Assembly: GCF_029227915.1 (NCBI RefSeq)
Contig: NC_079875.1
Coordinates: 11,033,001-11,097,000, forward strand
Direction: 5' to 3'
Length of the DNA: 64,000 bases
From: Hydractinia symbiolongicarpus
Taxonomy: Eukaryota > Cnidaria > Hydrozoa > Anthoathecata > Hydractiniidae
Part shown: positions 32,173-35,653 of the stretch, piece by piece
Position numbering within the stretch: position 1 is the first letter of the stretch
Layout: each line of letters begins with the position of its first letter
The notes under the pieces: model-generated
Databases searched by the model: none
Told to the model about the DNA's origin: nothing
Seen by the model: only the letters and a program-made list of their open reading frames with translations
Position numbers and translations under genes: made by a program

Positions 32173-32174
32173 TA

Positions 32175-32400
32175 CCTTAAGGGAACTTATTTTGGCGGGA
32201 ACTAATTTTGGCGGACGAAGGAAATCTAAAAAAAATTTAATTTTGGCGGGAACTAATTTTGGCGGATCAACGAAATTTTTAATTTTGGCGGGAACTTATT
32301 TTGGCGGGTGGCGGTTTTTTTTAATTTTGGCGGGAACTTATTTTGGCGGGTCAGCGGATTTTTTAATTTTGGCGGGAACTAATTTTGGCGAGTGAAGGAT
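32175..32400. repeat. Left sub-terminal array of GGCGGGAACT units
   Basis: Four to five units of the form AATTTTGGCGGGAACTTATT with TTGGCGG and A/T-rich spacers of 10-20 bases. The minus-strand transposase gene ends about 90 bases inside the array. Such arrays are typical candidate transposase-binding sites (inference). Confidence 0.8.
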
Positions 32401-32488
32401 TTTTTCAAATTTCAACGAAAATTTTCTTTGGTAAAGATGTAGAAATAAGCATTACAAAGCAAAGAATTTTAAAACAAATACTAAAAAT

Positions 32489-34329
32489 CTACTCTTCTTC
32501 ATCGTCTATGATAATGTCAAATGCATTCCGACTAAAGTCTATGTCATCCTCGTCACGCGTGTACTCCTCTTCTTTGTCATCGTCATTTTCGACTCGCACG
32601 TTGATGAAGCTATCCTTTAATAAATCTGGCGCATTGATTATGTCGGTTATGGGCTGAGTAATTACACTATTGCTTTCTGGCAGCGGTGATAGATCTTGAA
32701 AAGGGTCAAGGGATTCAAGTGAAGTGGATCCCATGCGAACTGCGTCGTAAATTCCAGATGCTTTCCACCCATTCAAAACGACTTCACGGCCATCTGCCGA
32801 AGTGATATGGTTATAAAACTGGAGGAGCCAACTTGCATGAAGAGGCTTGATGGTGGTCAGCTTTAATTGAATATTTATATCTTCGATCTTTTTGTTAAGG
32901 GATAGCTCTTTCTCGATCTGTTTTGAATACCATTCAGTGAACAAATTTCTCATGAATTGCTTGCAATGATTATTCACAGTAAGATCCAAGGGCTGGAATA
33001 TATGTGTCATGTTACTTGGAACCAAAACCAGGAAGATGTTGTTCTTCTTCAGCAATTCGGTAACTTCCTCAGTAATTTGTCCTCGAAAGACATCGAATAT
33101 TAGAAGAGCAGCTTGCTTTGGGTTATTTAACTTCTTCCTCTGGTCTTCAACGTGCTTTAGAACGATCTCTTTGATGACTTTGATGGATTCTTGTGTATTG
33201 CTGTAGTGTTTGGGATTAACGCTTAGTGAGAACGATTCGGGGAATTCAAACTTTGGGAGGCTTTGATTTGTTTTCCCCCCATATATCAGTTGCATTGGCA
33301 GAAAAGAACCATCAAGCGTAATAATAAAGGTACCAGTAAGGCATCTTTTGTCGGAAGATCCAACGATAGGGACGGACGATGAACCCTTTTTCGCCATGGT
33401 GTGATTCATTCTTGGAACAAACTTAAGAGGTGTCTGGTCCAGATTCATAACAAGTTGGTGAGGGATGCTGTGTTGTTCGATGGTCGAAACAATATCGTGA
33501 AGAAATAGTAATTCGCACTCCTTTTTGGCTCCTTCAGTGATTTCAACTTTGGAGGTCGTTTTCATTCTTTTCTTGAAACCCATTCTCTTGAAGAGGCTTT
33601 TTGCCCAACTGTTATCAATTTTAATATGCCCCAACTCAAATTGAGGGTTTCGTGATATTAGAGCTTTCGCTGCAGCGGTTGCAACTGTTCTTGAAACAAC
33701 ACCTCCTCGATTTCTCAGTGCAATTAAAAATCTTTGTACCATCTCATCTAGACTGCCAAGGAACAGAGGTCTACCGCGTTTCAAAGGAACAAATTTGGTT
33801 ACCACGCTACGTTTTTCTCGGGTTGAATCTTTCAGCTCTTTTTTGTAAAGATTGCCAAATCTTCGAGCTGTACTCTCACTTAACGGCCTGTCTTTGGTTT
33901 GAAACTTTGTGATTGCAGCCGCACCACCATGAATCGCAACATATTTTCCGATATCAAATCTTTCTTTTTCTGACCAACGGTTGTATGATTTTTTGCCACT
34001 GGATTTAACATTTTCAGTCGCGTCTGTAACAGCTTCGTAGTCTAACGAACCAAGGGATGATTCTTGCTGGAAGTCAGTTGGTTGTGGGCCTAAAATGAAT
34101 AAAACGAACCACTATGTAATTGCGAATTTTGACCAAAAATTAAAAATTTTCAAACAAAGAAAGAAACTTCTTCGCAGGTAGGTATAACAAAAAAAAACAT
34201 CAAAGAGAAATACTTACTTTGTTCCCTAGAACTGTTTGAAGGTGTTTCGTCTGAAGTTTTTTCCTTTTCAGCGGCCCTTTGTTGAGCTTCTTTCTCTTGT
34301 AATTTAGCTAACTTCCTGATGTAAGACAT
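32489..34329 (-). CDS. pogo-like DDD transposase, two exons
   Basis: Exon 1 is 34329-34218 (ATG, 112 bases, donor GTAAGTATTT). Exon 2 is 34089-32489, with acceptor TTCATTTTAG, and joins in frame (phase 1) to give about 570 residues without a stop. Exon 1 encodes a Lys/Gln/Glu-rich helix. Residues 60-130 hold a helix-turn-helix-like part (RFDIGKYVAIHGGAAAI, ESTARRFGNLY), followed by a second CENP-B-type region (WAKSLFKRMGFKKRMKT). The catalytic core shows MNLDQTPLKFVP (D255), LLIFDVFRG (D370) and FQPLDLTVNN (D406), a DD35D spacing of the pogo type. The C terminus is acidic (DDDKEEEY, DDEEE) and lacks a PIP box. The 128-base intron sits between a charged leader and the DNA-binding part. It should cut and paste this element at TA sites. 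Confidence 0.85.
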
Positions 34330-34418
34330 TTTGAAAGCCGGGAGATAAAAAAGGAAACGTAAGTTATCTGTATCCTGTATATTTACTCGAACATAAACAT
34401 TCCATTCACTTGGCCTAT

Positions 34419-34640
34419 ATTTACACTAAAAATCGAACAAAAACATTCTTTTTTTCTTGGCTAAGGCCCGTTTAGACTACCCAATCGAACAAAAACATTC
34501 TTTTTTTCTTCGCTAAGGCCCGTTTAGACTAACCAATCGAACAAAAACATTCTATTTAATTGGGAAAGTTCGGTCTACACTGACAAATAGAACAAAAACG
34601 TTCTATTTTCATGCTAGGCAATTAAAAAATCGATCGATTG
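34419..34640. promoter_or_regulatory. Bidirectional promoter region with 52-bp tandem repeats
   Basis: The 355 bases between the two divergent start codons contain four units beginning AATCGAACAAAAACATTCTT (34431, 34483, 34535 and a degenerate one at 34586), with period about 52. Each contains TAAGGCCCGTTTAGACTA or a variant. The first is preceded by ATTTACACTAAAAATCGAA (34419-34437), which is also found in the Tigger element at 29577-29595, again upstream of the transposase start. Repeats placed between divergent genes suggest shared control (inference). Confidence 0.5.
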
Positions 34641-34684
34641 ACATTTTTGTTTTTCATCAGAGCTAGAAAAGAAAAGACGTCCAT

Positions 34685-35335
34685 ATGGCTTACAACAAGA
34701 CGTTCGAGTTTACAGCTGCTGTCAGAGGATTCCATTATTATAAAACTTATTGGAAACCTGAGGAAAATCAATCACTGGACTGCTTTCATGAGAACAACAA
34801 TGTTTTCGATAGATTTGCAATCAAAGTTTGTGAATTCGGAAATGACAAACCAGTTGGCCATTTACCCAAAGAAATCTCAAGGGTTACAAAATTTCTTCTG
34901 GACAGAGGAGCGTCTATGAAATCCACGTTGACAAGTGTACACTATCGAAGATCACCTCTCGTTCAAGGAGGCTTGGAGATCCCCTGTAAAATAACTGTTA
35001 CTTTACCAGGGACAGTAAACAATCTTTTGGTTCTTGCAAGATACCAACAACTTGTAGAAGCCTTGTATACAGAGCCGAAAGAGGAATTGATTCTTGGTTC
35101 GTTCTTACATATTGCAGTTATTTTAGATGTCGTGGTTCCAACCGAAGAGAGACCAAAGCGTAAAAAAAATACAGCCAAAAGCCAAAGCAAAGAGACGAAA
35201 AAGCAAAAAGATATTCGAAACTTTTTTGGAAACACCTCAGCTGCACCAGCCCCAAAAAGGCAAAAAGTTAACAACAAACCTAAAAAGTCGTCACCATCGT
35301 CAAGCAAGGACTTAGAAATCATAAATATTGATTAA
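34685..35335 (+). CDS. HIRAN-domain protein with PIP box, transposon accessory gene
   Basis: A 216-residue open frame from ATG at 34685. Residues 6-110 match the HIRAN pattern: FTAAVRGFHYYKTYW, then NNVFDRFAIKV, VGHLPKEISRVTKFLLDRG, and a closing strand LEIPCKITVTLPG. The family binds DNA, and in HLTF the domain captures 3' DNA ends at stalled forks (established). After residue 155 follows a basic, Ser/Lys-rich tail with NLS-like PKRKKNT and KKQK clusters. QKDIRNFF (Q174, I177, F180, F181) is a full PIP box for PCNA. No helicase or RING part is present, unlike cellular HIRAN proteins such as HLTF. It is divergent from the transposase, inside the same terminal repeats. I infer a replication-coupling accessory factor. 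Confidence 0.8.
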   Translation: MAYNKTFEFTAAVRGFHYYKTYWKPEENQSLDCFHENNNVFDRFAIKVCEFGNDKPVGHLPKEISRVTKFLLDRGASMKSTLTSVHYRRSPLVQGGLEIPCKITVTLPGTVNNLLVLARYQQLVEALYTEPKEELILGSFLHIAVILDVVVPTEERPKRKKNTAKSQSKETKKQKDIRNFFGNTSAAPAPKRQKVNNKPKKSSPSSSKDLEIINID

Positions 35336-35440
35336 AAATTATCTTGTATTAGAGGTTTATTATGACATAATATTTCTAGCGCAAAGGTATATTTCTAAAA
35401 GATATAAAAAATTGAAAAAAAGTTGATTTTTGTCGATTTT

Positions 35441-35651
35441 TTAAGGGGAACTTATTTTGGCGGATCAACGAAATTTTTAATTTTGGCGGGAACTTATTTT
35501 GGCGGGTGGCGATTTTTTTTAATTTTGGCGGGAACTAATTTTGGCGGGTGAGTAAAATATTTAATTTTGGCGGGAACTAATTTTGGCGGATTTTGCCCCA
35601 ATCCGCCAAATCCGCCAAAATTAGTTCCCGCCAAAATAAGTTCCCTTAAGG
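35441..35651. repeat. Right sub-terminal array and terminal inverted repeat
   Basis: Four units (GGGAACTTATTTTGGCGG and AATTTTGGCGGGAACTAATT) run in the same orientation as the left array, i.e. they are not inverted. Only the last 41 bases, plus a short bridging CCGCCAAATCCGCCAAA, are inverted to make the terminal repeat. The arrays are therefore direct copies of each other flanking the genes. Confidence 0.8.
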
Positions 35652-35653
35652 TA

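Follow-up and report, generated by a model that had tools for sequence, protein, structure and literature searches.

Organization of the element

The window analyzed here is a 64,000-nucleotide stretch of the Hydractinia symbiolongicarpus genome (480.9 Mb in 76 contigs), G000:C1:11033001-11097000 in our numbering. It carries an element, referred to as family A, with two divergent genes, one encoding a transposase and the other a HIRAN protein. Positions are those of the window. The features are as follows.

32175–35651, no strand: whole element of family A, 3477 bp
32173–32174 and 35652–35653: TA flanks of the element
32175–32214, plus strand: left terminal inverted repeat, identical to the right one at 40 of 40 bases
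32181–32392, plus strand: left array, six copies of the 19-base unit GGGAACTTATTTTGGCGGG or a variant, the last four spaced by 42 bases
32489–34089, minus strand: transposase exon 2 with the DDE_1 domain, DD35D
34090–34217, minus strand: transposase intron, GTAAGT...TAG, by eye
34218–34329, minus strand: transposase exon 1, starting MSYIRKLAK, without a PIP-like motif; read by eye, frame kept
34330–34684, no strand: intergenic region of the divergent genes, with four 51-base repeats
34685–35335, plus strand: accessory HIRAN protein gene, 216 aa
34706–34942, plus strand: HIRAN domain, residues 8–86 by Pfam; the fold match extends to residue 127
35144–35203, plus strand: lysine-rich tail, NLS-like by eye from the sequence only
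35204–35227, plus strand: PCNA-type motif QKDIRNFF, residues 174–181
35315–35332, plus strand: SIM-like C-terminal end EIINID, residues 211–216
35446–35590, plus strand: right array, four copies of the 19-base unit GGGAACTTATTTTGGCGGG or a variant, with 42-base spacing
35612–35651, minus strand: right terminal inverted repeat

Judged by this organization, the element is a two-gene pogo-like cut-and-paste transposon. The preliminary description of the locus had placed divergent genes within the perfect terminal repeats of a TA-flanked, pogo-like element, and the 40 identical repeat bases, the TA on both sides, and the DDE_1 match bear this out. The two transposase exons give 570 aa in a reading frame that is continuous over the intron (by eye), and Pfam identifies DDE_1 with E 3.2e-10 and 40.3 bits (cut-off 22). 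The HTH_Tnp_Tc5 match scores 14.6 bits, below its cut-off of 22.2, and hence we name the element only as pogo-like and assign it to no particular pogo family. The DD35D fits the Passer and Fot-like elements, nearly all of which have it (PMC7386202). At the transposase C-terminus (~32489–32530) there is an acidic NAFDIIIDDEEE stretch, which reads NAFDFIIDDECNE in family B (L034) and could be a second SIM-like motif.

The 19-base unit has the same orientation in the left and right arrays, which are likely candidates for transposase-binding sites. The 51-base repeats, at 34400–34605, match the reference copy at 61–94%. Ends of the form TA-C[C/T]TTA are common to families A, B, C, D, F, G, and H, with the qualification that the terminal repeats of family G are weak and could be located at two of the four G loci only. 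The terminal arrays also match the E2F consensus (TTTTGGCGGGAA, TTTTCGCGGGAA), both in the window (32175–32392 and 35446–35651) and at L034, L036, L037, and L028. TTTSSCG sites in the two 300-bp ends number 20 in family A, 14 each in B, C, and F, and 7 in D (shuffle means 0.7–1.5), and 5 in H (shuffle mean 0.5). G and E have no such site. Under the stricter TTTSSCGS, the counts are 19 in A, 13 in B, 4 in F, and 0 in each of C, D, H, G, and E. We set the E2F reading aside, since transposase-binding sites are the simpler explanation and the family A arrays sit behind both genes.

The accessory protein matches PF08797 (HIRAN) with 32.5 bits against a curated cut-off of 24.7, and the fold test likewise returned HIRAN. 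Pfam gave HIRAN alone, with no SNF2 motor, RING, or helicase domain in the 216 aa; the domain thus stands alone, as first proposed. QKDIRNFF conforms to the PIP pattern Qxx[ILM]xx[FY][FY], and the full PIP box described for the tail is therefore upheld.

Copies of the element and recent spread

A 30-base terminal pattern gave 49 exact matches in the genome, which correspond to 24 two-ended elements plus one, L019, with a damaged right end; two further terminal matches with two mismatches each are lone ends and were left out of the count. Nineteen of these 25 family A elements are full size, and all 19 have a stop-free exon-2 transposase frame (519 aa). A complete HIRAN ORF with 100% identity is present in 22 of the 25, including every full-size copy. 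The 20 loci fetched comprise 17 full-length copies (99.7–100% nucleotide identity), two internal deletions, and one member of another family. TA lies on both sides of the window element and of all 18 fetched family A copies for which both ends were found (19 fetched). The near identity of the copies points to a very recent burst of family A.

None of the six family A deletion derivatives has an intact transposase; three keep the whole HIRAN ORF, and two keep 201 and 143 of the 216 residues. The sixth, G000:C8:14747661-14747859, is a MITE-like pair of ends of 199 bp with no HIRAN gene and is the only one so short among the exact matches. Preferential retention of HIRAN in such derivatives was considered and set aside, the transposase being a larger target for deletion.

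A conserved transposase–HIRAN pair

With the window transposase as query, the genome yielded 84 matches, the best-scored part of a larger set (83 of 1,098 candidates scored). Identity to the window transposase is 59% for family B, 48–49% for F, 47–48% for C, 39% for G, and 36–38% for H. In a first count, with the window HIRAN protein as query (150 of 784 candidates scored), a divergent HIRAN gene lay within 4 kb of 59 of the 84 transposase matches, and 17 of the 18 matches in the 36–43% identity band seemingly had none. This absence was mostly a failure of detection. At all seven loci read from those 17 (L032, L033, and L038–L042), a diverged HIRAN ORF occupies the same place, some of them broken, and a search with diverged HIRAN added a partner for six of the ten remaining loci. 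L043 is the transposase half of an element only. Pfam assigned no family to the family G HIRAN protein at E 0.1 and gave that of family H 13.4 bits, under the cut-off; against the family profile, the G protein matches with 99.7% probability and 38% identity over 125 columns.

When the diverged HIRAN rows were added and the limit set at 4.5 kb, a divergent partner was found for 73 of the 84 matches. Among the 38 near-full-length transposases (spanning at least query residues 20–445, with no more than one stop), 37 have a partner, and 19 of these are family A copies. Ten of the 11 partnerless matches are partial or have many stops. The eleventh has a HIRAN match in the right orientation ~7 kb away, and the match to its element stops short toward the intergenic region; an insertion might explain this arrangement.

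The two proteins have also diverged together: over six families, HIRAN identities track those of the transposases with r 0.97, a value reached by one of 720 relabellings, the true one. Between families, the HIRAN genes show 0.31–0.51 nonsynonymous changes per site against a saturated 0.72–0.86 for synonymous ones, and dN/dS is 0.10–0.31 where dS is finite (4 of 21 pairs), so that selection on HIRAN is only bounded, as synonymous sites are saturated. Collectively, sequence comparison identifies the transposase and the HIRAN protein as a conserved, co-inherited divergent pair. Outside this genome, A-like HIRAN and A-like transposase matches lie on contigs of equal size, 26,972 and 15,349 bases, which suggests that they also occur together in other sources. 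The two other shared sizes among the four were discarded as signs of linkage: 1,174 bases could not accommodate both genes, and 3,363 is among 11 near-coincidences of short contigs.

Several loci show variants of the pair. A 1,279-bp element at L028 (4991–6273) has TA flanks, terminal repeats, and a HIRAN gene, and no transposase ORF was seen inside it. L030 (1894–4002) is a deletion derivative of family B, in which most of the transposase is gone and the HIRAN ORF is complete. The family G HIRAN protein (L032, 1495–2250; L038, 2661–3428) has a cysteine-rich N-terminal extension, and its tail is strongly acidic in place of the PCNA and SIM-like motifs.

The HIRAN domain and its C-terminal tail

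Homologues of the HIRAN protein were sought among ~5.8 billion proteins at E <= 1e-3, and the 1,071 candidates included 826 matches, the window's own among them; 120 are listed. As for viral relatives, 46 stretches in viral_contigs fitted a search pattern, and none was confirmed.

The HIRAN domain of HLTF recognizes a 3′-terminal single-stranded DNA end (PMC11237066). Its pocket residues, taken from the literature and placed by eye on the HIRAN protein, suggest that most of the DNA-end pocket is kept. Among the 120 listed homologues, position 39 (HLTF N91) is Asn in 118, position 41 (HLTF Y93) is Phe or Tyr in 119, and position 18 (HLTF Y72) is Tyr in 90; the pocket neighbors at positions 42 and 17 are Asp in 113 and His in 115, respectively. 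Position 38, which faces HLTF N90, is Asn in just 36 of 120, and the HLTF mutant alters N90 and N91 jointly (PMC11237066). Capture of 3′-OH ends by the domain has, in our estimate, slightly better than an even chance.

A DIxxFF-type tail motif is present in 87 of the 120 listed homologues, a SIM-like end in 80, and both in 71; among the 108 with at least 180 aa, the numbers are 87 and 79, respectively. Of 33 representatives (<65% identical, >=190 aa), 29 have the DIxxFF type, compared with 0.1% of shuffled tails, and 29 have the SIM-like end, a short and weakly defined motif found in 5.6% of shuffled tails. Mean pairwise identity among the representatives is 61% for HIRAN, 66% for KDIRxFF, and 41% for the last six residues, and falls to 17% in the linker before the motif and 14% in the one after it (206 of 528 pairs usable). 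A HIRAN protein bearing a PCNA-type motif belongs to the conserved parts of the element. Both a HIRAN match and the gene in every full-size copy were found, where the absence of either would have counted against the preliminary description.

Beyond that description go the alternation of the motif with one at the transposase N-terminus and the occurrence of the gene in sister families and in a Tigger-like family, both treated below. In addition, the tail has the SIM-like end, and its motif is of the RFC1 type: the Gln at motif position 1 varies among homologues, DIxxFF is kept, and DIRxFF corresponds to the PCNA motif of RFC1. Human RFC1 MDIRKFF, which lacks the Gln, binds PCNA with 145 nM in a p21 scaffold, and the Aspergillus fumigatus RFC candidate MPTDIRNFF binds its own PCNA with <100 nM (PMC10672205). 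We therefore consider it quite likely that the tail binds PCNA. A preference for SUMO-PCNA is possible, if somewhat short of an even chance. Short motifs in disordered tails can, however, bind proteins other than PCNA: in Rad5, the region containing a PIP-like motif binds Rev1 (PMC9225081).

Alternation of the PCNA-type motif

Among the families read, the HIRAN tail motif is QKDIRNFF in A, QKDIRSFF in B, SHDIRDML in C, SRDIRDMF in D, and IPDIRVMF in F; the endings thus deviate to ML in C and to MF in D and F. Family D is known solely as a HIRAN-only element. A PCNA-type motif was not found in the HIRAN proteins of families G and H, and that of G is also without the SIM-like end. The transposases of these two families start MALFKYFKK (G) and MAKVRDLRDFYKSS (H), and those of the others MSYIRKLAK (A), MSSSG (B), MSFLRPSVKK (C), and MSFLQKVKS (F), with first exons read by eye and a stop in exon 1 of the family F copy. 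Among full-length homologues from other sources with a Met start, the N-terminal motif occurs in 17 of 36 for the H transposase and 24 of 54 for the G transposase, against a background of 3.4% of windows deeper in the same proteins. A loose PCNA-type motif is also present within the catalytic domain of the transposases.

The N-terminal motif, by a definition widened after the sequences had been viewed, was mapped onto a transposase tree with 100 rows, six of them our own and the other 94 being those of the 228 listed proteins that have at least 440 aa. Our own families A, B, C, and F fall in a clade of 28 rows with an SH-aLRT of 100, in which a single row shows the motif; elsewhere on the tree it is present in 62 of 72. 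The motif label needs 12 changes on this tree (at least 11), compared with a shuffled mean of 30, and 0 of 500 shuffles were as low. Motif-free rows outside the clade may be N-terminally truncated and those inside may be without the first exon, the check having covered our own families, for which alone HIRAN partners are known. As read from the sequences, the PCNA-type motif lies on the HIRAN tail in some families and at the transposase N-terminus in others. With 12 changes and a midpoint root only, the tree establishes neither a single move nor its direction; if the motif was handed over, the simplest course would be from transposase to accessory protein.

A HIRAN protein in a Tigger-like family

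Family E (L029) is Tigger-like, with DDE_1 at 127 bits, HTH_Tnp_Tc5 at 48 bits, and the terminal repeat CAGTGGAATCCC. It also has a HIRAN ORF (34.1 bits) divergent from the transposase, in which a PCNA or SIM motif was not found. Used as query, this protein gave at least 150 matches, with 150 of 759 candidates scored. As neither motif was found in family E, PCNA binding is not a general property of the HIRAN transposons here. The families read have HIRAN in common, and the PCNA tail is a feature of the window's side.

At L029 (1673–4084), the 192-aa HIRAN gene is head-to-head with the Tigger-like transposase. Twenty-five family E HIRAN rows span query residues 1 or 2 to 192 with 98–100% identity (one with a stop), and many diverged rows exist beyond these.

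Proposed mechanism and alternative explanations

Beyond the structure, conservation, pairing, motif alternation, and recent spread recorded in the sequences, we infer the following mechanism. The HIRAN tail would bind PCNA, perhaps favoring its SUMO-modified form, as does the tail of Srs2, in which a PIP-like motif is combined with a SIM at the extreme C-terminus (PMC9225081). The PCNA contact would direct transposition to replicating DNA, where the sister chromatid could serve to refill a cut donor, with a gain in copy number. Recruitment to replication forks, as put forward in the preliminary description, would be in keeping with the motif, with the RFC1 precedent, and with the known link between pogo and PCNA: the pogo transposase binds PCNA, with the PIP box conserved in Tigger and Lemi1 (PMC5371812). 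For the bacterial IS1634, stronger clamp binding gives a higher transposition rate (PMC4549789).

The HIRAN domain, in turn, would grip the 3′-OH ends exposed by the transposase, and a motor-less HIRAN protein might stop host HLTF from evicting the complex and passing the ends to resection. The idea of protection from HLTF derives from in vitro data in which isolated HLTF HIRAN acts as a dominant-negative block of HLTF-driven Cas9 removal and end resection (PMC11237066); we consider such protection somewhat unlikely. Taken as a whole, a two-gene pogo-like transposon with a PCNA-binding tail and an end-gripping HIRAN decoy is moderately probable as the best explanation. Its boldest form is a clamp-dependent clade of eukaryotic DNA transposons in which the motif is handed between transposase and HIRAN tail, HIRAN serving as an end-capping, SUMO-PCNA-reading HLTF decoy that lets transposition proceed on newly replicated DNA; this form we hold to be unlikely. 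To our knowledge, no transposon has been described that encodes an antagonist of a fork remodeller, and an HLTF decoy, if true, would be the first.

The same tail layout and end recognition could serve another purpose. An accessory protein that recognizes 3′ ends and SUMO-PCNA might steer repair after excision toward gap filling or suppression of recombination at the donor, with no recruitment of the transposase to forks, as the Srs2-like order of PIP-like motif and C-terminal SIM (PMC9225081) and the 3′-end binding of HLTF HIRAN (PMC11237066) would allow. However, two sister families and their homologues have the PCNA-type motif on the transposase, which fits better with recruitment of the transposase complex, and we rate repair steering as unlikely. 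That HIRAN partners the transposase in every family read, and is retained in family E, where no PCNA motif was found, raises the question of whether it serves as a transpososome subunit, binding DNA so as to bridge the arrays in the terminal repeats, with PCNA binding being secondary. This is improbable: HLTF HIRAN takes 3′-terminal single-stranded DNA rather than internal duplex, the stacking residues are largely conserved here, and the islands of tail motif conservation would be left unexplained. Chance capture of a host gene fragment by a single element copy, for which a host HIRAN exon at L001 (E 2.0e-20, HLTF-like from its translation) could be the source, is rejected as vanishingly improbable, given that the gene is in all 19 full-size copies and that homologues occupy the same divergent position in families whose transposases are ~36–60% identical.

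Returning to the PCNA-dependent reading, retention of the motif on either the transposase or its partner speaks for the importance of clamp binding to the element, and the alternating placement amounts to a natural experiment on clamp binding. These families thus make it possible to ask whether such elements spread by riding on DNA replication. The near-identical copies imply that a possibly active element with open reading frames is available. As the isolated HIRAN domain of HLTF is dominant negative in vitro (PMC11237066), the stand-alone protein of the element would also lend itself to the study of HLTF.

Comparison with known systems

In the accessible text of the pogo survey PMC7325037, HIRAN and PCNA have no occurrences, and a HIRAN partner is not described in the available parts of the surveys PMC7386202 and PMC7325037. 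Titles and the beginnings of abstracts in the open-licence literature gave no report of a HIRAN-carrying transposon; one may exist elsewhere, for example in a repeat database.

The element shares with the pogo superfamily (pogo, Tigger, and Lemi1) the DDE_1 transposase, the TA flanks, DD35D as in Passer and Fot-like elements, and the link to PCNA. In contrast to these, it has two genes, and in the window's family the PCNA-type motif is on the accessory HIRAN protein. Extra genes alongside a DDE transposase are also known from the ciliate TBE and Tec elements, Tc1/mariner relatives with three ORFs, but there the extras are a zinc-finger protein or a recombinase (PMC7325037).

With HLTF and Rad5, the HIRAN protein has in common the fold and, apparently, most of the DNA-end pocket residues, whereas it is a stand-alone HIRAN with another tail, in which SNF2 motor and RING were not found. 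The DIRxFF without Gln is shared with the N-terminal PCNA motif of RFC1 (PMC10672205); it lies in the C-terminal tail of the window protein and near the N-terminus on the sister transposases. As in the Srs2 tail, a PIP-like motif is combined with a C-terminal SIM or SIM-like end (PMC9225081), but in the window protein no helicase was found, and the comparison concerns how the two tails would work, not homology.
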